A stretch of 53,843 nt of DNA, from contig JAMXLK010000049.1 of NCBI GenBank assembly GCA_024281075.1, positions 1 to 53,843 of the forward strand, given 5' to 3'. The notes under the pieces were generated by a model. That model worked only from the letters and a program-made list of their open reading frames with translations. It was not told the DNA's origin and did no database searches. This DNA comes from Vulcanimicrobiia bacterium. Its GTDB lineage: Bacteria > Vulcanimicrobiota > Vulcanimicrobiia > Vulcanimicrobiales > Vulcanimicrobiaceae. Below are positions 40,339-48,789 of the stretch, one piece after another. Every line of letters begins with the position of its first letter. The stretch's first letter is position 1. The position numbers and the translations under genes were made by a program.

Positions 40339-43300
40339 CTACTGAAAGCTGTGGATAGCGAGCGTTCGGGTGACTCCCTCGTCGTCGAAGCTCGCAATCT
40401 TCTTGGCAAGTACGTCGACGCAGCCGCTCTCCTTCTGCAGCGTTCCGTCAATGATGAGCGTCGACGAGGATCGGATCGGACGGCGATAGACTTCGTACAC
40501 GTCGGGACGCACGATGACGTTGACGATGCCGGTTTCGTCTTCGAGCGTTAAAAAAACGAAGCCCTTTGCCGTCCCCGGACGTTGACGAGTGATCACCAAC
40601 CCGCCGACGCGGCACGCGCTGTTGCGCGGCAACGTTGCAAGGCGTGCGGCCGGAACCACGTTCTGTTCGTCGAGGAAGCTGCGAAAATGCTCCATTACTT
40701 GGCCCGACGGTGTGACGCCGGTCGACCAAAGATCGAAGGCCGCGAGCTTTCGGGGCGCCGGCGTCGCGAATTCGACGCGCGGTTCGTCGACGTCCATGAG
40801 CGCGCCGAGTTCGCCGCGCGCCTCGCGCTCGTCGAGCCCGCGCAGCGCCCACATCGCTTCGCGACGCGACGCGTACCACGGTGCGAACGCGCCGGCGATT
40901 GCGAGGTTCTCGAGCGTCTCGCGAGCGAGCTGCGTGCGTTGTGCGAAGGCGAGCACGTTTTCGAACGGCCCCGCGTCGATCGCCGCCTGCAAGCGTTGTT
41001 GCTGCGCCTCGCCGAGCCCGCGTACGAGATGGAACCCTAAGCGCAGCGCGCCGTCGGCTTGCACGTGCGACCAATACTCGCTGGCGTTGACTTCGATCGG
41101 TTTTATCACCACGTCGTGGCGGCGCGCGTCGTTGACGAGTACCTCGGTCGAATAAAAACCCATTGGCTGCACGTTGAGAATTGCGGCGGCAAAGACCGCC
41201 GGAAGATGACATTTCAAATAGGCCGAGGCGTAGGCTAAGAGCGCAAAGCTTGCGGCGTGCGACTCCGGAAATCCGTAATCGGCGAATCCTTCGAGCATGT
41301 GAAAGAGCTGCTCGGCGGCGTCGCGTTCGATGCCGTTGGCGATCATGCCGTCAACGAGCTTTGCGTGCATCGCTTCCATGCGCTGGCGCGAGCGCTTATG
41401 ACCCATGGCGCGGCGCAGCTGATCGGCTTCTCCCGGTGAAAAACCGGCTGCCTCGATCGCCAATCGCATTCCTTGCTCTTGAAAGAGCGGCACGCCGAGC
41501 GTGCGCTCGAGCACCGGCTTGAGCTTGGGGTGGGGATAGCTCACCGGCTCCATGCCGGACCGGCGCCGCAAAAACGGATGGATCATCTGCCCTTGAATCG
41601 GCCCCGGACGAATGATGGCGACCTGCATGACGATGTCGTAAAAACAGGCCGGCTTCAGTCGCGGCAGCATCGATTGCTGCGCGCGCGATTCGATTTGAAA
41701 GACGCCGATCGTATCGGCACGCTGCATCATGGCGTAGGTTTTTTCGTCGTTGGCGGGGATCGTGTGCAGCTCGACGTCGCGCCCGACCTCTCTCGGCAGC
41801 CACGCATCGGCACGCGCGACGCATCGCCGGTAGATCGTCAAGGCTTCGCGTAAGAGCGAGAGCATGCCCAGACCGAGCAGATCGATCTTGATGAGCCCGA
41901 GCTCTTGGAGATCGTCTTTATCCCATTGCACTACGGTGCGGTCGCGCATCGTCGCCCATTCGACGGGTGCGACGCGCACGAGCGGATCGCGCGTAATCAG
42001 CATGCCGCCGGAGTGGATGCCCAAGTGCCGCGGAAAGTTGGCGATGCGGCGGCAAATCGCAAAGAGCATCTCGGGGCCGGTGTCGTCCGGCAATTCCTCG
42101 CGCGTATCGAACTCTTTGGCGATTGCATCGACCTGTTCGAGGGTCAATCCCAGCGCTTTGCCTGCGTCCCGGATCGCCGAGCGCGTGCGATAGGTAATGA
42201 CCTCCGCAACCATCGCCGCGTTGGCGCGCCCGTAACGTTCGTAGACATATTGAATGACCTTCTCACGGTCTTGATGCGCAAAGTCGATATCGATGTCGGG
42301 AATCTCGCGGCGTTCTTCGGACATAAAACGCTCGAAGAGCAGATTCATCGCGATCGGATCGACCGCGGTGATGCCGAGCGCGTAGCAGACCGCCGAGTTT
42401 GCCGCCGAGCCGCGTCCTTGGCAGAGCACGCCGAGTTCTCCGGCGATGCGAACGATATCCCAGACGATGAGAAAGTATCCCGCCAGGTCCATCTTTGCGA
42501 TGAGACCGAGCTCGTATTCCAGTTGCCGCTCGACGGGAGTTTCAAGCGGCATTGCGTAGCGTTTGGCCGCGCCCTCGTAAACGAGCTTACGAAGATGGCG
42601 CTGCGGCGAGCTTCCCTCCGGAACCGGAAAGAGCGGAAACTGGCCGGTGAGCCGCTCCAGCCGAAAATGGCAGCGTCGTGCGATCGCGGCACTTGCTTCG
42701 ATTGCCTCGGGATAGGCCGCGAAGAGGCGTCGCATTGCAGCGGGCGATTTAAGATGATACTCGGCATTGGGACGAAGTTTGTTGGCGGCACGCGCCGCCT
42801 GCAACGTCGTGCCGTCGCGCACGCAGGCGAGTACGTCGGCAACGAGCGCGTCATCCTTGCGTGCGTAGACGACCGCGTTGGTGGCTACGTAGGCAACGCC
42901 GCATTCGCGCGCGAGGCGGACGAGCCGGACGTTGCGCCGCGTCTCTTCGGGCGTGAGATGCTGGTGCAGCTCGAGGTAAAAGCGATCGCCGAAGATTTCC
43001 TTATATTGCATCGCTCGTTCGGCTGAGTCATCTGCAGCGAGAGCGGTCAATCCATTGCTACGGCCTTGAAAATCGTCAAGCTGCAGCCGCGCGTCGCCTT
43101 TGCTGCCGCGCATTTGCGCGCGCGAGATCAGTTCGCAAAGATTTGAATATCCCGCTTGATCCTCGACGAGCAGAACGATGCGCGCTCCGTCTTCAAACGT
43201 GAGCTCGCTGCCGATAATCGCTTCGACGCCGCGCTTGCGGGCGTACGCCGCGAAGCGGACCGCGCCGTAGAGCCCGTCGCGATCGGTCAGCGCAATTGCG

Positions 43301-43398
43301 GCGAGACCAAGCTCCGCCGCGCGCTCGATCAGTTCTTCGGGATGCGACCCGCCTTGCAAGAAACTGAAATTCGACCACGCGTGCAGCTCGGCGTACAT
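40339..43398 (-). CDS. dnaE2: Error-prone DNA polymerase DnaE2 (ImuC)
   Basis: 1019 aa from the ATG at 43398 (MYAELHAWSNFSFLQGGSHP); further open upstream sequence lies inside imuB. It has the PHP domain (TDRDGLYGAVRFAAYARKRG), the C-family polymerase active site (PDIDIDFAHQDREKVIQYVY with paired Asp, and IKIDLLGLGMLSLL), a tandem helix-hairpin-helix region (GFADYGFPESHAASFALLAY), and an OB-fold near the end (VGGLVITRQRPGTAKGFVFL). Length is typical of DnaE2. Working with ImuA and ImuB, it copies damaged DNA with low fidelity in the SOS response. It is the third gene, 4 bp after imuB. Confidence 0.95.
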   Translation of the reverse strand: MYAELHAWSNFSFLQGGSHPEELIERAAELGLAAIALTDRDGLYGAVRFAAYARKRGVEAIIGSELTFEDGARIVLLVEDQAGYSNLCELISRAQMRGSKGDARLQLDDFQGRSNGLTALAADDSAERAMQYKEIFGDRFYLELHQHLTPEETRRNVRLVRLARECGVAYVATNAVVYARKDDALVADVLACVRDGTTLQAARAANKLRPNAEYHLKSPAAMRRLFAAYPEAIEASAAIARRCHFRLERLTGQFPLFPVPEGSSPQRHLRKLVYEGAAKRYAMPLETPVERQLEYELGLIAKMDLAGYFLIVWDIVRIAGELGVLCQGRGSAANSAVCYALGITAVDPIAMNLLFERFMSEERREIPDIDIDFAHQDREKVIQYVYERYGRANAAMVAEVITYRTRSAIRDAGKALGLTLEQVDAIAKEFDTREELPDDTGPEMLFAICRRIANFPRHLGIHSGGMLITRDPLVRVAPVEWATMRDRTVVQWDKDDLQELGLIKIDLLGLGMLSLLREALTIYRRCVARADAWLPREVGRDVELHTIPANDEKTYAMMQRADTIGVFQIESRAQQSMLPRLKPACFYDIVMQVAIIRPGPIQGQMIHPFLRRRSGMEPVSYPHPKLKPVLERTLGVPLFQEQGMRLAIEAAGFSPGEADQLRRAMGHKRSRQRMEAMHAKLVDGMIANGIERDAAEQLFHMLEGFADYGFPESHAASFALLAYASAYLKCHLPAVFAAAILNVQPMGFYSTEVLVNDARRHDVVIKPIEVNASEYWSHVQADGALRLGFHLVRGLGEAQQQRLQAAIDAGPFENVLAFAQRTQLARETLENLAIAGAFAPWYASRREAMWALRGLDEREARGELGALMDVDEPRVEFATPAPRKLAAFDLWSTGVTPSGQVMEHFRSFLDEQNVVPAARLATLPRNSACRVGGLVITRQRPGTAKGFVFLTLEDETGIVNVIVRPDVYEVYRRPIRSSSTLIIDGTLQKESGCVDVLAKKIASFDDEGVTRTLAIHSFQ

Positions 43399-43402
43399 CG
43401 CC

Positions 43403-44686
43403 TCACTCGTAGACGCCGCGTAGATACCAGTGCGCGCCTTGATGGTAAATGCGCGCGAAGGTTCCATCTTCGAGCACGACGTCGTACTCATCGCGTTCCT
43501 CGACGGAGCCTGTCCCGAGCGAAGTCGAGGGGCTCGGGACAGGCTCCCCGTTAGCACCGACGCGTTGCGCAATCCGCCAGGGACCGGTGCATTGACGGAC
43601 CGCTTGACGATCGACCATCGCCGGCTCGCCGCCGCGAAGCTGCACCGGCACCTCGCGCACTTCGAGCAGACGAAGCTGCGGTACTAGATCGAAACGCTTC
43701 GCTTCTTTTTCTAAGGTTGGCCGCGGCAGCTTGAATGGCTCGTAGCTAAAGCGCTCTTCGAGCCGATGCGCCTCGCGAGTTTTGGCGTGCACGACGCCGG
43801 TGCCGAGCGCCGCCTCGAGGCGCGCGATCGTCACTGCGACGCGTTGCGGATCGAGCTCGTCGGCGCAAAAGAGCGTTTGCGCTTCTCCTCCTTCTTCTAG
43901 CTCGAGTGCCTGCAGCCGCAAGCCGACGATCGGGGCATTAAAGCTCGCGCCTTCGAGCTTGGCGCGCAGCATTTCGAAGAGCGCGCGCGCGTGAGCCGTC
44001 GGCGTCGCGAGCGGCACTTCGAAATCGCAATCGCCGGCGTCTTCGAGCTCGACGGAAAGTTTTAGCCGTCCTGCGCGCTTGCCGCAACGCTCGAGATCGG
44101 TGCAAATGCGTGCGAGCAGCATGCGCAAAGCGAAAAAAACCTGCGCTTCGTCGGAGGCGCGTCCTTCACCGAAGATCGAGGCTTCGATGGCGACGGCCTG
44201 CGCGCGCGGGACGAACGGGCGCCGGTCGATGCCGCGCGCAAGCTCGTGCCAAATCGCCGCAATCGGACCGAATCGGCGCACGAAGGGACCGTGCGGCAAG
44301 CGCGCGAGATCGCCAAGCCGCTCGATGCCGAGCAATCGTAGACGATCGATAATCTCGGGCTCGATTTCGAGCAGCGTCAGCGGCAGCGGAGCGAGAAGCG
44401 CGCGTTCAGTTCCCGGCTCGCAGATCGTTCCGTCGCCGAGATAGCGGGCCGCGTATGCCGCAATTTTGTTGGAGCCCGCGCCGATACGCGTGACGCATTC
44501 AAAACGCGCCAGCGTTTCGTGCGCGTTTGTAATCTGCGCGCGTGTATCGCCGGCAATGCCGTGCATATCGAGGAAGGCTAGGCCGAGCCTAGCATCGTCA
44601 ACGAGCGGCGAGACGGCATCGAGCGCATCGAGCATCTCGTTCCAGAGCGTCTTTTCTTCAACGCGAACGTTAATGCAGAGTAACAT
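43403..44686 (-). CDS. imuB: ImuB-like Y-family polymerase homologue, N-terminally shortened
   Basis: 427 aa from the ATG at 44686 with an AAGG ribosome site; an earlier ATG at 44701 exists. ImuB and other Y-family polymerases begin with a palm strand carrying a catalytic Asp and about 80-100 residues before the SIDEAYLD-like motif. Here that lead is cut to about 35 residues and the motif reads LGLAFLDMHG, without the acidic pair. So no polymerase activity is expected, as for known ImuB, which acts as an adaptor between ImuA and the beta clamp. The rest (ERLGDLARLPHGPFVRRFGP, then LSVELEDAGDCDFEVPLATP) matches. A palindromic repeat is inserted in frame near the C-terminus (EPVPSPSTSLGTGSV). 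Confidence 0.9.
   Translation of the reverse strand: MLLCINVRVEEKTLWNEMLDALDAVSPLVDDARLGLAFLDMHGIAGDTRAQITNAHETLARFECVTRIGAGSNKIAAYAARYLGDGTICEPGTERALLAPLPLTLLEIEPEIIDRLRLLGIERLGDLARLPHGPFVRRFGPIAAIWHELARGIDRRPFVPRAQAVAIEASIFGEGRASDEAQVFFALRMLLARICTDLERCGKRAGRLKLSVELEDAGDCDFEVPLATPTAHARALFEMLRAKLEGASFNAPIVGLRLQALELEEGGEAQTLFCADELDPQRVAVTIARLEAALGTGVVHAKTREAHRLEERFSYEPFKLPRPTLEKEAKRFDLVPQLRLLEVREVPVQLRGGEPAMVDRQAVRQCTGPWRIAQRVGANGEPVPSPSTSLGTGSVEERDEYDVVLEDGTFARIYHQGAHWYLRGVYE
43505..43547. repeat. REP-like palindrome inside imuB
   Basis: A perfect 16-bp inverted repeat (GGAGCCTGTCCCGAGC and its complement) surrounds an 11-nt loop containing the core TCGAC-N3-GCTC (minus strand). It encodes an in-frame extra segment of about 15 residues in ImuB. 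Confidence 0.85.
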
Positions 44687-45377
44687 GCTTACCTTCGACA
44701 AGCTCAGGGTGACACTGGACCGTTACGAGCGTTGTGCGGCCCGCTGCCATATGCTTGTGTTTGCGCACGTCGACGCGCAACTCGAAGCCGTCCACGGTGC
44801 CCCAGAGCCCATGCCGTCCGAACATATGAATCCGCCCGAGGGTGCACTGCAAACGCACGCCGGCGACGGTGCTCAAGGCCGCACCGGCCTGCGCGGCCAC
44901 CACGATTAAGAGCACGCCGCTACGGTGCGCGAGCTGCGCGAGCCGTTCCCAAACCGCATCACGTAATGTAACGAACGGCATGAGCACGAGCCGACATATC
45001 CGGGAGCGCAAGAGTATGTCGGCCGCACGCGCCATTGCAAGCGCCTTGCGAGCTGGAACGACCAAGACGCGGTCGAGGCTCGCCCCCGCCTGGGCGAGCG
45101 CCGGCGGATAGAGACCGCCATCGTCAACGATCGCGACCAAACTGCGGCGGGTTATCTTCGCAACCAGACCGGCCGCAAGGCTCCAACGGCCGGTCTCACC
45201 TTCAAGTGTCGCCACCGTACCGGCGGGGAAACCGCCGGCAAGCAGGCTATCGAGTTGGGGGATGCCGGTGGGTACGAGCTGTTCCACCGGCAGGGCCGTG
45301 GGCTGGGCGCTCAGGCGCTCCTTGAGGCGCCGAAACGCTTCACTTTTAGGTACTTCCGCTGCCGCCAGCACCGACAT
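44670..45377 (-). CDS. imuA: ImuA-like RecA-fold protein
   Basis: 235 aa. A RecA-like fold in the SulA/ImuA manner: LVPTGIPQLDSLLAGGFPAG, then a P-loop-like TLEGETGRWSLAAGL where the usual Walker Lys is missing, and LLIVVAAQAGAALSTVAGVR. ImuA recruits the mutasome; nucleotide binding is lost or weak. The last 11 or so residues (CHPELVEGKHVTLH) come from a dispersed repeat at the imuA/imuB junction, so the original stop has probably been displaced. Its promoter contains a LexA box and its ATG is 9 nt after the -10, so the message is nearly leaderless. Confidence 0.9.
   Translation of the reverse strand: MSVLAAAEVPKSEAFRRLKERLSAQPTALPVEQLVPTGIPQLDSLLAGGFPAGTVATLEGETGRWSLAAGLVAKITRRSLVAIVDDGGLYPPALAQAGASLDRVLVVPARKALAMARAADILLRSRICRLVLMPFVTLRDAVWERLAQLAHRSGVLLIVVAAQAGAALSTVAGVRLQCTLGRIHMFGRHGLWGTVDGFELRVDVRKHKHMAAGRTTLVTVQCHPELVEGKHVTLH
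44692..44714. repeat. REP-like repeat at the imuA/imuB junction
   Basis: CCTTCGACAAGCTCAGGGTG followed by ACA. It shares the TCGAC-N3-GCTC core with the copies at 43505 and 48824. It forms the end of imuA and lies over the imuB start region. Confidence 0.75.
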
Positions 45378-45391
45378 GGGAGAACCATGCT

Positions 45392-45409
45392 ATCGAACAT
45401 ATGTTCGAT
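45392..45409. promoter_or_regulatory. LexA (Cheo-type) SOS operator
   Basis: A perfect 18-bp palindrome, ATCGAACATATGTTCGAT, contains CGAAC-N4-GTTCG, the LexA box of Bacillus and other Gram-positive and related bacteria. It lies between the -35 and -10 of the imuA operon, whose products are classic SOS proteins. LexA itself is not in the window. Confidence 0.85.
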
Positions 45410-45415
45410 TGTCAA
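45408..45415. repeat. Target-site duplication, left copy (ATTGTCAA)
   Basis: Eight bases directly before the IS left end, identical to 48199-48206. Its reverse complement contains the TTGACA -35 of the imuA promoter. Eight bp is the usual duplication of IS1595-family elements. Confidence 0.92.
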
Positions 45416-45428
45416 CGGTATAAATCAC

Positions 45429-45457
45429 TTGACACACCAAACGTTTGTGCGTATACT
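45429..45457 (+). promoter_or_regulatory. Transposase promoter built into the left inverted repeat
   Basis: TTGACA (45429-45434), 17 nt, TATACT (45452-45457), with only 6 nt to the ATG at 45464. The predicted start is at the ATG itself, so the message would be leaderless. The spacer contains the small palindrome CAAACGTTTG. Confidence 0.75.
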
Positions 45458-45463
45458 TGGAGT

Positions 45464-46408
45464 ATGAAAGCGCCCGCTACTCTCCTCGAGGCAGTAACCT
45501 ACTTTTCCGACCCCGACCGCGCCCATGAGTACGCGACCGCCATGCGGTGGCCGAGCGGTGTCGCTTGCCCCCGCTATGATTGCGGGTCGGCAGCGGTCCG
45601 TTTCGTAAAAACTCGGCGGCTTTGGGTGTGCAAGGACTGCAATCGGCAGTTTACCGCCAAGGTCGGAACCGTCTTTGAAGATTCGCCCATCCCCTTCACC
45701 AAATGGTTGCCGGCGATCTGGCTGCTCTCTGCCAATAAGAACGGTATCAGCTCCTACGAGCTAGGGAAGGCGCTCAAGGTCACGCAGCGGACCGCGTGGT
45801 TTATCCTGCACCGCATCCGCCTTGCACTCAAGGATGACGAGGCGCTTCAGCTTTCAGGTGAGGTAGAGGCTGACGAAACCTATGTTGGCGGCAAGCTGCG
45901 CCACAAGCGCCGTTACCATCAGCACGTTCCTTCGGGCATCAAGCGTATGGGGACAGCGGGCAAGGTGCCCATCCTCGGCATCCTACAGCGCGGCAAAGAC
46001 GGCAAGCCGTCTAAGGTTCGCGGCTGGGTGCTTCCTAATGCCCGCAAGAAATCAATGCTGCCGAAGCTCTATGAAACCGTTGAGCACGGGTCGCACCTGT
46101 TCACCGATAACGCCCACCATTACGCTCACGCTCACCACGACTACGTTCATTCGGTCGTGAATCACGCGAAGGAGTATGTGAGCCGCGACGGTGCCCACGT
46201 TAACAATATAGAGTGCTTCTGGTCGGTCCTAAAGCGGACTCTCGGGGGCACCTATATTGCCCCGCGACCTAAGCACCTTGAGCGGTACCTAGACGAGCAG
46301 ATTTTCCGGTTCAACACCCGCGAAGACAAGGATGGCGATCGGTTCAACAAGGCCCTTAAGGCCACAGACGGGAAGCGCCTCACCTACAAGGCCCTGGTAA
46401 GCAAGTAG
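45464..46408 (+). CDS. IS1595-family transposase
   Basis: 314 aa from the ATG at 45464, preceded by GGAG and placed 6 nt after the promoter -10. An N-terminal zinc ribbon (CPRYDCGSAAVRFVKTRRLW, then VCKDCNRQF) and a helix-turn-helix (ISSYELGKALKVTQRTAWFI) precede the ISXO2-like DDE domain. Catalytic acidic residues are seen in EVEADETYVGG, HLFTDNAHHY and NNIECFWSVLKR. The product cuts and joins the terminal repeats and gives 8-bp duplications, in agreement with the flanks. No frameshift or stop interrupts it and the ends are perfect, so the element may be active. Confidence 0.95.
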   Translation: MKAPATLLEAVTYFSDPDRAHEYATAMRWPSGVACPRYDCGSAAVRFVKTRRLWVCKDCNRQFTAKVGTVFEDSPIPFTKWLPAIWLLSANKNGISSYELGKALKVTQRTAWFILHRIRLALKDDEALQLSGEVEADETYVGGKLRHKRRYHQHVPSGIKRMGTAGKVPILGILQRGKDGKPSKVRGWVLPNARKKSMLPKLYETVEHGSHLFTDNAHHYAHAHHDYVHSVVNHAKEYVSRDGAHVNNIECFWSVLKRTLGGTYIAPRPKHLERYLDEQIFRFNTREDKDGDRFNKALKATDGKRLTYKALVSK

Positions 46409-46415
46409 CCGCTGA

Positions 46416-46444
46416 TTGCTCGCTTAGGACCGATGTGCTATAAT
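46416..46444 (+). promoter_or_regulatory. Promoter of the passenger leader
   Basis: TTGCTC (46416-46421), 17 nt, and a perfect TATAAT (46439-46444) just after the transposase stop. It would transcribe the eight-codon leader and, past the terminator, the passenger genes. Confidence 0.6.
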
Positions 46445-46463
46445 CTGGGTGGAGGGAGACAAG

Positions 46464-46490
46464 ATGACACGCGATATCAAGCCTCGCTAG
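46464..46490 (+). CDS. Eight-codon leader ORF (MTRDIKPR) inside the IS
   Basis: ATG with a GGAGGGAG ribosome site 5-6 nt upstream, then ACACGCGATATCAAGCCTCGC and a stop. It lies between a perfect -10 box and a terminator that precedes the passenger gene. Its position and shortness recall leader peptides of attenuators, though the codons show no obvious amino acid bias. Alternatively it could be the 5' part of a small RNA. Confidence 0.45.
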   Translation: MTRDIKPR

Positions 46491-46498
46491 GCCAACTC

Positions 46499-46517
46499 GG
46501 CTCAAACCTTTCGAGCC
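46499..46517 (+). other. Candidate antiterminator stem
   Basis: GGCTC at 46499-46503 and GAGCC at 46513-46517 can pair around a 9-nt loop. The right arm overlaps the first two bases of the terminator stem (46516-46519), so the two hairpins exclude each other. Confidence 0.4.
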
Positions 46518-46550
46518 CCTGCTTCGTCTGCAAGCTGGGGATTTTTATTT
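46516..46550 (+). terminator. Rho-independent terminator before the passenger genes
   Basis: CCCC-t-GCTT pairs with AAGC-t-GGGG (46516-46540), followed by ATTTTTATTT (46541-46550). It stands after the leader ORF and 27 bp before the passenger gene, in the sense direction. Confidence 0.75.
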
Positions 46551-46576
46551 GCCTCAGACCTAGCGCCTGATAGAGA

Positions 46577-47176
46577 ATGCGAAGAGGCACCCTCTGGCTC
46601 ATCTACGGCTTGGTTCTTGCGGGGTCTGGGTTGGCGATCTACGTTTTGTACGCCCAGGAACAATCTGAGTCGCCCCATCAGTATTGGCACATTGCCACAT
46701 TAGTGGGCTCTCTAATCATCGCTATTGGATGGATTGTCGCTTCGGGAAATACCGTTCGCAACGCGCAACGCCAGCACGCCATTACGATAAGCCTCGCTTA
46801 CGAGTACGATGCCAAATCCGCAGAGCGCCGTAAGACTATCAGGAGGTACCTCGCAACTGGGCGTACACAACTCATACCGAGCCAAGGATCAGATCCGCCG
46901 ATTCCGCCGTATTCAGAAGTCGCCCATGAGCTGTATGAAGCCGTAGATTACGAGTTAAACTTTATGGATTTCATAGCAAATGGGGTATTGTCCGAAACGT
47001 TAGACAATACCCTAATCAGGAACGGAATGCAGTCACAATTCTTTTACCGGTACTATCAGGCAAAGCCCTATGTCCAAGCGGTCAGGCGGCAAAACCGTCG
47101 AATTTGGTCATCATTCGTAGAGATTTGTGATGAGTGGGGTTTTGATGCGTACACACCGCCAACAGACGGTTCTTAA
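46577..47176 (+). CDS. IS passenger: DUF4760-like membrane protein
   Basis: 199 aa. Two N-terminal transmembrane helices (TLWLIYGLVLAGSGLAIYVL and HIATLVGSLIIAIGWIVASG) are followed by a cytoplasmic helical region (VRNAQRQHAITISLAYEYDA, later YELNFMDFIANGVLSETLDN and WSSFVEICDEWGFDAY). This is the layout of DUF4760 proteins, which are common in mobile and defence-related settings but have no known function. It is outside the transposase operon logic: a promoter, leader and terminator precede it. Being inside the element it should move with it. Confidence 0.72.
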   Translation: MRRGTLWLIYGLVLAGSGLAIYVLYAQEQSESPHQYWHIATLVGSLIIAIGWIVASGNTVRNAQRQHAITISLAYEYDAKSAERRKTIRRYLATGRTQLIPSQGSDPPIPPYSEVAHELYEAVDYELNFMDFIANGVLSETLDNTLIRNGMQSQFFYRYYQAKPYVQAVRRQNRRIWSSFVEICDEWGFDAYTPPTDGS

Positions 47177-47192
47177 GGTTATGGTGATATAA

Positions 47193-47351
47193 ATGCCGCG
47201 CAAACCTGAGCCAACCCCCAAGGAAAAGCTGGACGAGATGATGGCTTTTGGCAAAAAGCTGTTTGCCGTACCTAAGGAGCAGTACGACGAGCGCGAAGCA
47301 AAACGCAAGAAGCGATCTAAGGGGCCCCGCAAGAAGGCCCGTACTAGTTAA
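47193..47351 (+). CDS. IS passenger: 52-aa basic protein
   Basis: ATG to TAA, 52 codons. Strongly charged: PEPTPKEKLDEMMAFGKKLF, then a lysine/arginine-rich tail (KRKKRSKGPRKKARTS). The middle (FGKKLFAVPKEQYDEREAKR) resembles the short FVAVPK-type ORFs often found next to prophage or mobile genes. It lies 16 bp after the DUF4760-like gene. Probably binds nucleic acid or a partner protein; no certain family. Confidence 0.6.
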   Translation: MPRKPEPTPKEKLDEMMAFGKKLFAVPKEQYDEREAKRKKRSKGPRKKARTS

Positions 47352-48084
47352 AAAGCCTGAGCCGCATAAGTTCAAGGACTACAGTTTTAGCGGCGGTCCA
47401 GATGTTCCAGAGTTCAACAGCGATATTGTGGACGCCATGCCCGAACATGCCCGCAAGATCGGCGAGATCGCAGCGCATTGGAACATTGTCGAAACAACTT
47501 CCTTGGCGACGTTCATGCTATTACTTGCGGGACAAGAGGACGCCGCGTTCATCTTGTATTACGACGTTCTGAAGAAGGGCAATCGCCTTCAACGTAACGA
47601 GGCATTTAATCGAATAGCCAAGGAACGCGGAATCCCCGAAACTATCCTTAACGGCTTAGCGTTACTTAACAGCGAGATCGAAGCAGCGCGAGATGATAGG
47701 AACCTAATCGTTCATGCCATGTGGGCTAGCGTCGCTGATTTACCAGATGCCCTCCTCGCGGCACAGAACCCGGGTCAATGGATAAAGGACAATCACACTA
47801 TCCTTGCCTGGAACCTGGCCACGAAAAGAGGGGATGCTAGCGGCCCAATTATGTCTGACGTTTTGCCTCAGATCACCAAGTTTTGGATTGTTAGGCTGGG
47901 CGATCTTCAGGTCATTGAAGATCGAATTAAGGCCCTTTGCGATAGGATCACCATTTATCACAAGAAAATCGCCAGCCTTTGCTTTGCAAAGCCTGCACTA
48001 CAGCCTTGGACGAGGATTGAAAATATACGTCATCGGCTGAAAATGGCGAATCCCACCGGCAAAAGTAAAAAGCCAGCTCACTAA
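47248..48084 (+). CDS. IS passenger: HEPN-like protein, start uncertain
   Basis: The frame is open from a TTG at 47248. Codons before about 47341 overlap the 52-aa ORF and are probably not used. Clear protein begins near KKPEPHKFKDYSFSGGPDVP, but the first canonical starts after that are GTG 47428 and ATG 47437. The core (IGEIAAHWNIVETTSLATFM, LLNSEIEAARDDRNLIVHAM) is all-helical and contains RNLIVH, which fits the R-x4-H motif of HEPN ribonuclease domains seen in toxin-antitoxin and abortive infection systems. Function as an RNase is inferred from this motif alone. It is coupled to or frameshifted from the 52-aa ORF. Confidence 0.65.
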   Translation: MAKSCLPYLRSSTTSAKQNARSDLRGPARRPVLVKKPEPHKFKDYSFSGGPDVPEFNSDIVDAMPEHARKIGEIAAHWNIVETTSLATFMLLLAGQEDAAFILYYDVLKKGNRLQRNEAFNRIAKERGIPETILNGLALLNSEIEAARDDRNLIVHAMWASVADLPDALLAAQNPGQWIKDNHTILAWNLATKRGDASGPIMSDVLPQITKFWIVRLGDLQVIEDRIKALCDRITIYHKKIASLCFAKPALQPWTRIENIRHRLKMANPTGKSKKPAH

Positions 48085-48160
48085 TCAGATCGGCCGTAAG
48101 CGCCCCCTGAAGATCATCCTGATTAGCTAGACAATCGGTCGCCCTGTCGTGGGCCATGGT

Positions 48161-48178
48161 ATCGAACATCCTTTCGAT
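48161..48178. promoter_or_regulatory. LexA-box-like sequence inside the IS right end
   Basis: ATCGAACATCCTTTCGAT matches the imuA operator palindrome at 15 of 18 positions. On the minus strand TTGACA from the terminal repeat, 18 nt and TACCAT frame it like the imuA promoter. Repressor binding is doubtful because one half-site is GAAAG rather than GAAC. Confidence 0.45.
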
Positions 48179-48198
48179 GTGTCAAGTGATTTATACCG

Positions 48199-48206
48199 AT
48201 TGTCAA
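48199..48206. repeat. Target-site duplication, right copy (ATTGTCAA)
   Basis: Directly after the IS right end, identical to 45408-45415. It joins a GGCGC-TACT-GCGCC hairpin that lies behind the cupin gene at 48226. Confidence 0.92.
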
Positions 48207-48225
48207 GGCGCTACTGCGCCGTTCT

Positions 48226-48789
48226 TTAGGTCGTGGGGGAGAAAGCCAGGCGCCGGTTCTCTTCCTCAAAAATCTGCGCGATGCGGTACGGATCGCAGGG
48301 GCGCTCGAGCAACGACTCAGGGTCCCACTCGCTACGGTTCGCGTTGAAGAAATCGCCGCCGTAAACGTGGATCGCGCCGGTGAGCCGGTCGATCGGATTG
48401 GTGACCGAATGAATCATGTCGCGGCCGAGCGGCACAGTGTCCTTATCGCGCAACGATTTTGCACCCGCCGCCTCGACGCGATTTGAAGCGTCCGGCAGAC
48501 GGCGCCAAAATATATTGTCTTCGCGTCCGGAGTAGATGCCGATGACGGCCCACATATCGTGGTTATGCGGAAAAATGGTCATCTTCGGCGCCCAGATCAC
48601 GTTGAGAATCGTCAATTCCGGCGACTGATAGAGGCGCTGGAGTTGGCCACGGTCGGGCTCGCCGAGCGCTTTGAGCACCGCCGACGGTTCGCTTACCGCG
48701 CGGGCGACAACCTCACGAATCGCCGCCGAGGAGCGGTCTCGCCCGAGTGCCTCGCGGCAGTCGGCAATGAATTGGTCGAGGTCGAACAT
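48226..48789 (-). CDS. Cysteine dioxygenase-like cupin protein
   Basis: 187 aa. The core PHNHDMWAVIGIYSGREDNI with FWRR is the metal-binding strand pair of cysteine dioxygenase-type cupins (HxH), and MIHSVTNPIDRLTGAIHVYG carries the later His. The N-terminus is helical (FIADCREALGRDRSSAAIRE). Family members oxidise thiols such as cysteine or 3-mercaptopropionate with iron and oxygen; the substrate cannot be told from sequence. It sits just before the imuA promoter on the same strand, so before the IS arrived its terminator region abutted that promoter. Confidence 0.8.
   Translation of the reverse strand: MFDLDQFIADCREALGRDRSSAAIREVVARAVSEPSAVLKALGEPDRGQLQRLYQSPELTILNVIWAPKMTIFPHNHDMWAVIGIYSGREDNIFWRRLPDASNRVEAAGAKSLRDKDTVPLGRDMIHSVTNPIDRLTGAIHVYGGDFFNANRSEWDPESLLERPCDPYRIAQIFEEENRRLAFSPTT

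Follow-up and report, generated by a model that had tools for sequence, protein, structure and literature searches.

An IS1595-family cargo transposon beside an imuA promoter and the frequent promoter-proximal insertion of its relatives

Background

Has a transposon found directly against a promoter landed there by chance, been spared there by selection, or been aimed there? The question is raised by a 53,843-nucleotide contig of a Vulcanimicrobiia bacterium (JAMXLK010000049.1; the whole stretch analysed, here called the window), in which an IS1595-family transposon with passenger genes adjoins the LexA-regulated SOS promoter of imuA. Only a few transposons of bacteria are known to target promoters; the ones described in PMC3942029 have Mutator-like transposases. 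The answer that is probable on the present evidence is that a clade of IS1595 elements, mainly from Eremiobacterota, often inserts directly upstream of outward-pointing sigma70-type promoters whose -35 starts 0-2, 7 or 15-16 bp from the element end.

The element and its target site

The transposon lies on the plus strand at 45416-48198 (2783 bp), as defined by its ends and target duplication. Its 21-bp terminal inverted repeats, CGGTATAAATCACTTGACACA, at 45416-45436 (plus strand) and 48178-48198 (minus strand), are identical at 21 of 21 positions, and the 8-bp duplication ATTGTCAA is present on both flanks (45408-45415 and 48199-48206). An earlier note on this DNA had described these repeats and this duplication correctly; of the span 45416-48206 that it gave, the start stands and the end takes in the right duplication, the element itself stopping at 48198. 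Its assignment to IS1595 is also upheld. The transposase ORF (open reading frame; 45464-46408, plus strand, 314 amino acids) is uninterrupted and encodes an IS1595 DDE domain and a zinc ribbon, matching DDE_Tnp_IS1595 (Pfam PF12762) over the full profile length at 1.9e-35, the NCBIfam IS1595 model NF033547 at 4.8e-52 (176.9 bits, cut-off 75) and, with its N-terminal zinc finger, PF12760 at 2.7e-11. The perfect ends, perfect duplication and intact transposase support the view that the insertion is recent.

The host assembly is from the Eremiobacterota, 2.47 Mb in size and 86.54% complete, and may have lost repeats; it holds one copy of the entire element. A search of this genome for further copies with the same 21-bp ends, suggested in the earlier note, found none beyond this element: at up to 3 mismatches the 21-mer occurs at these two places alone, and the reversed control gave 0.

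The target is the LexA-regulated imuA promoter (45387-45415, minus strand), with the -35 TTGACA at 45410-45415, a 17-bp spacer and the -10 TAGCAT at 45387-45392. The 14-bp LexA box CGAACATATGTTCG lies inside that spacer (45394-45407, minus strand). Read on the minus strand, the left duplication is TTGACAAT, the TTGACA -35 plus AT. Because the duplicated 8 bp include the -35, the SOS promoter of imuA stays whole, as the earlier note had proposed. The same arrangement of -35, LexA box and -10 is repeated at imuA loci of the host family, with a LexA box seen at 84 of 85 inspected loci (30 + 2 in one set and 53 in another, partial or weak imuA matches being excluded).

An empty site is found in a genome of the same genus (G001, locus L100), which has one ATTGTCAA directly after the LexA box and no element, between the same two genes; its neighbour gene corresponds to that of the window with 82.9% identity over 181 amino acids. 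The imuA locus of G010 (L091) likewise has a single ATTGTCAA at the site. Sister genomes therefore hold the single copy that the earlier note expected of an uninterrupted site.

Recurrence at imuA promoters

In the transposase search, 36 of 149 Eremiobacterota genomes were matched, and two distinct further IS1595 elements share the imuA-promoter address. G037, which belongs to a different family within the host's order, has an element directly against its own imuA LexA box, flanked by an exact 8-bp duplication. In G023, from another genus of the same family, a decayed element adjoins the imuA LexA box; its duplication is 7/8 by eye (ATGTCAAG/ATTTCAAG), the register chosen by the script giving 6/8. 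The element starts 8 bp past the 14-bp box in the window and in G037, and 8 or 9 bp past it in G023, where the end is ambiguous. The end facing the box is the left one in the window and the right one in the other two, whose transposases are about 60% (G037) and 55-56% (G023) identical to that of the window. A probable right-end remnant stands 16 nt from the imuA box of G008, and the imuA site of G064, a genome of the same genus as G023, is empty. Among the 85 family loci, an IS1595 end beside the box was seen by eye in the window, G023 and G008; G037 is outside this family set and was located through its transposase.

Some other loci may be recorded here. At L352 (G080) an imuA -35 has an end-like stretch about 30 nt away on its upstream side, and a LexA-box-like CGAACGGGCGTTCG is present 55 nt outside the element at L199 (G065). 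The IS256 element L364 (G069) is also found upstream of an imuA SOS promoter, by a few tens of bp and in another position.

Insertion beside promoters in related elements

The earlier note saw the site as incidental. Promoter-proximal insertion is, however, common in the clade, and imuA promoters have been struck repeatedly. For the counts, element ends were set by inverted repeats and the 8-bp duplication alone, the G023 element being retained by eye; transposase fragments, elements at contig ends for which the two ends were not both present, and repeat records of a single locus were excluded. An outward-pointing, strong predicted sigma70 promoter with its -35 starting 0-16 bp from the end was found for 14 of the 31 elements with a transposase at least 45% identical to that of the window. 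The following 16-bp bins (1-24), within the 400 bp taken from each of the 62 flanks, held 2 such promoters, one of which is L201 itself at offset 16, and inward-pointing promoters in the first bin numbered 0. When the empty sites were rebuilt, 17/31 scored at least 5.5, versus 4/533 control positions in the same flanks.

A second scoring matrix placed 12 of 24 Eremiobacterota elements near a promoter, against 0.08 per other 16-bp bin. The distances are clustered, at 0, 1, 2, 7, 7, 7, 7, 15, 15, 15, 15 and 16 bp, the window element being at 0. The elements at L152, L149 and L199 likewise lie inside predicted promoters, and in most targets the -35 is accompanied by a good -10 at a spacing of 17-18 bp. 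The four members of one subclade (support 100/99; L144, L147, L148 and L203), each at a locus of its own, share offset 15, the promoter at L203 being weak (4.03). A transposase tree of 87 rows puts the window element in a 14-row clade (98/85) of which 11 are at or in promoters; a 37-row, mostly Acidobacteriota group with weaker support (83/90) has 3 such rows (Fisher 2e-6 versus the window clade).

Features of other kinds were seen at some targets. Those at L139 and L145 resemble the palindrome CTTGACARYTGTCAAG, and at L025 and L193 one flank adjoins ends of the element's own type, suggesting tandem insertion. Near-identical targets occur within a genome at L289, L291 and L294 (G245) and at L283 and L286 (G418), as if insertion had been into a repeat.

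Explanations for the bias

It is suggested that the transposition complex senses the promoter itself. In the simplest form it would dock on polymerase-occupied promoter DNA at the upstream edge; alternatively, it may read the -35, a sequence that is also present in its own terminal repeats. A more ambitious proposal, tentative and a little short of probable, is that a Merlin/IS1595-type clade has independently evolved promoter-addressed transposition, in which promoter complexes are recognised by the integration machinery and insertion follows at fixed intervals upstream of the -35, with nearly silent landings and the SOS promoter of the imuA operon as a recurrent address.

Several results weigh against promoter sensing. 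The promoters beside these elements are predicted, and 12 of the 24 Eremiobacterota elements are without one. Among relatives below 45% identity 1/15 is promoter-proximal, and in other phyla 3/46 are, so that the trait is not family-wide; this independent set of 46 comprises one element from elsewhere (L332, G159) and 45 from the Acidobacteriota (396 genomes searched) and Armatimonadota (291 genomes searched). A promoter bias of the IS1595 family as a whole was accordingly rejected. Over the 27 rows compared, the promoter label changes 5 times on the tree versus 6.4 when shuffled, and 70 of 500 shuffles were as low; the label is therefore not significantly clustered among these rows. In the window itself the next gene is only about 19 bp from the duplication, and selection alone could therefore explain this single case. 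Lastly, the ends of the IS256 elements used as a control are mostly poor, and if all are kept 1/41 is near a promoter (L420, probably a chance repeat).

That short gap, and the imuA promoter left whole by the insertion, are what would be expected if insertion were random and elements persisted only where they lay in a short gap between genes with an intact promoter downstream. This is nevertheless unlikely as the general explanation. Survival does not account for offsets clustered at 0-2, 7 and 15-16 with the following 16-bp bins nearly empty, nor for three imuA strikes at nearly one position, and on the far side of the element the nearest non-overlapping long ORF is 145 bp away in G037 and 240 bp in G023, by crude ORF calls with other ORFs spanning the site. 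The pattern is also missing from IS256 elements of this phylum: 0/16 with clean ends (a repeat match of at least 18/24, counted by hand) and 0/6 with exact duplications are promoter-proximal. The imuA strikes might instead reflect a transposase that recognises the LexA box or LexA, so that the element homes to SOS promoters. Boxes in three hosts, and probably in a fourth given the G008 remnant, have been struck at a near-identical position, and the right end of the window element contains a copy of an imuA-type promoter. Such homing is very improbable: by eye, 82 of the 85 family imuA loci are free of an IS1595 end next to the box, and an adjacent LexA box is missing from 9 of the 12 promoter-proximal Eremiobacterota sites, for which reason homing was rejected as a general rule.

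It is possible, with the balance tilted towards doubt, that the transposase prefers DNA similar to the element's ends (TTGAC, or inverted repeats flanking the duplication) and that promoters are struck because of the likeness of their -35s to such DNA; this explanation shares ground with promoter sensing in its -35-reading form. The repeats do hold TTGAC at the likely transposase -35, some targets adjoin own-type ends or the palindrome CTTGACARYTGTCAAG, and palindromy is higher in the flanks of 46 sites than it is once flanks are re-paired (0.353 versus 0.259). The good -10 at the proper spacing in most targets is not needed by -35 mimicry alone. A single ancient imuA insertion, inherited vertically, would fit a divergence from G037 and G023 that is similar in size for the transposase (60% and 56%) and imuA (43% and 55%). 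It is scarcely credible, given the opposite orientation in the window, the empty sites in G001, G010 and G064, and the perfect ends of the window element.

Comparison with known systems

The window element resembles the IS1595 family in its transposase domains, zinc ribbon, 8-bp duplication and inverted ends. IS1595-family terminal inverted repeats generally begin with GG; those of the window element are perfect but start with CGG, and the relatives' ends mostly with GG. In PMC8101967, repeats beginning with GG are given for eukaryotic Merlin, the N-terminal zinc finger is said to be missing solely in the IS1016 group, and the IS1595 groups are listed as ISPna2, IS1016, ISH4, IS1595, ISSod11, ISNwi and ISNha5.

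In a literature search covering few subscription papers, no report of IS1595 insertion near promoters at set distances was found among the papers listed. TnGBS and related elements insert 15-17 bp upstream of the -35s of sigmaA promoters, and ISLre2 and part of ISKra4 have the same specificity; contact with the RNA polymerase initiation complex was proposed, and the property was termed unusual (PMC3942029, where IS1595 is mentioned once, in the reference list). The present clade is like these elements, as described there, in inserting upstream of promoters, with one subclade at 15 bp. Their transposases are Mutator-like, unlike the IS1595 transposase of the window, which did not come out as a Mutator member, and the present clade differs further in having three distance classes (0-2, 7 and 15-16) and in using both element ends. 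Of the 12 promoter-proximal Eremiobacterota sites, 5 are at 15-16 and the rest are at 0-2 and 7, with the window at 0. IS1595 relatives outside the clade are mostly without promoter-proximal insertion, and the best reading is that the promoter-proximal clade is convergent with TnGBS, ISLre2 and ISKra4. If this is correct, a second promoter-aiming transposase family would suggest an independent origin of the trait, and small proteins would be available for locating the targeting determinant. It would also explain how cargo spreads without breaking host genes. The repeated landing at imuA offers a testable link from the SOS response to insertion.

Cargo-carrying IS1595 members were reportedly described by Siguier et al. 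in 2009. Like them, the window element has passenger genes between the transposase and the right end; its own cargo is a DUF4760 protein, a small basic protein and a protein without a family match, and its Eremiobacterota relatives carry Panacea, PIN, NYN, methylase-Mrr and other types.

Cargo genes and other features

All three cargo genes are on the plus strand. The first (46577-47176) encodes the DUF4760 protein of 199 amino acids (PF15956, 1.3e-17), whose N-terminal part is hydrophobic by eye. The second (47193-47351, 52 amino acids) and the third (47248-48084, at most 278 amino acids, start uncertain) each have a weak relative in the G037 element, with BLASTP values of 6e-6 and 1e-4 in single comparisons. 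The third is present in 2 of the 149 genomes, its own included. It matched no Pfam, NCBIfam or PADLOC family, and no relatives were found in the plasmids searched; in viral contigs, 9 stretches fit its pattern and 0 encode a relative. AlphaFold2 without an alignment gave it a mean predicted local distance difference test score of 41.2, and the fold was not used.

None of the four proteins of the window element was matched by PADLOC. Most of the elements whose ends are defined measure 1.9-4.6 kb, and 39 cargo ORFs, chosen by hand, were surveyed from 23 of the 24 Eremiobacterota elements, that of G023 contributing none. Panacea and DUF3892 were each found twice, and DUF4760 (that of the window), PIN, NYN, DUF5343, an SDH protease and a DNA methylase with an Mrr-type domain once each; most of the ORFs have no family. 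Of 70 PADLOC families for these ORFs, the 25 listed comprised methyltransferases and a single PDC model.

The genes beyond the imuA promoter are all on the minus strand. The imuA gene itself (44670-45377) matches NF033429 at 4.7e-17 with 62.5 bits, under the cut-off of 150. It is followed by an imuB-like Y-family polymerase relative (43403-44701; IMS_C 1.2e-5 and DNA polymerase IV models) and by dnaE2, the error-prone DNA polymerase III alpha (40339-43572; NF004225, 1250.7 bits, above the cut-off), whose true start may fall within the ORF. The likely transposase promoter (45429-45457, plus strand) diverges from that of imuA, the two -35s being 13 bp apart. Its predicted -35, TTGACA (45429-45434), is in the repeat and is separated by a 17-bp spacer from the -10, TATACT (45452-45457); the start codon is 7 nt past the -10.

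Between the transposase and the first cargo gene, 46440-46549 has a TATAAT, a tract rich in purines, a short frame of 8 codons (46464-46490) and a hairpin that resembles a terminator and has a T-run. Folding of this leader-like region (46440-46560) was not better than that of shuffles (z 0.86), and Rfam gave no match over 45300-48300 up to E = 1.

The right end contains a degenerate, inward-pointing imuA-type SOS promoter (48151-48185, minus strand), which shares the TTGACA of the repeat and runs antisense to the third cargo gene. Aligned with the imuA promoter of G031, it is identical at 31 of 34 paired bases with one gap, one half of the LexA box being degraded. Its inner part scores 22, against maxima of 16.5 in 1500 shuffles, 14.0 in 192 other ends and 15.5 in 501 pieces of the window. 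In a DNA search of the phylum this stretch matched a LexA-box promoter in G121, immediately ahead of a frame that by eye is dnaE2-like. It is inferred that an ancestral element met an imuA promoter earlier and that both were joined at the shared TTGACA. A motif, GACAGG[G/A/C]CG, lies 43-58 nt inside 11 of 93 right ends and 0 of 93 left ends; its carriers include the window element (48140-48148, minus strand), L144, L148, L149, L154 and L290.

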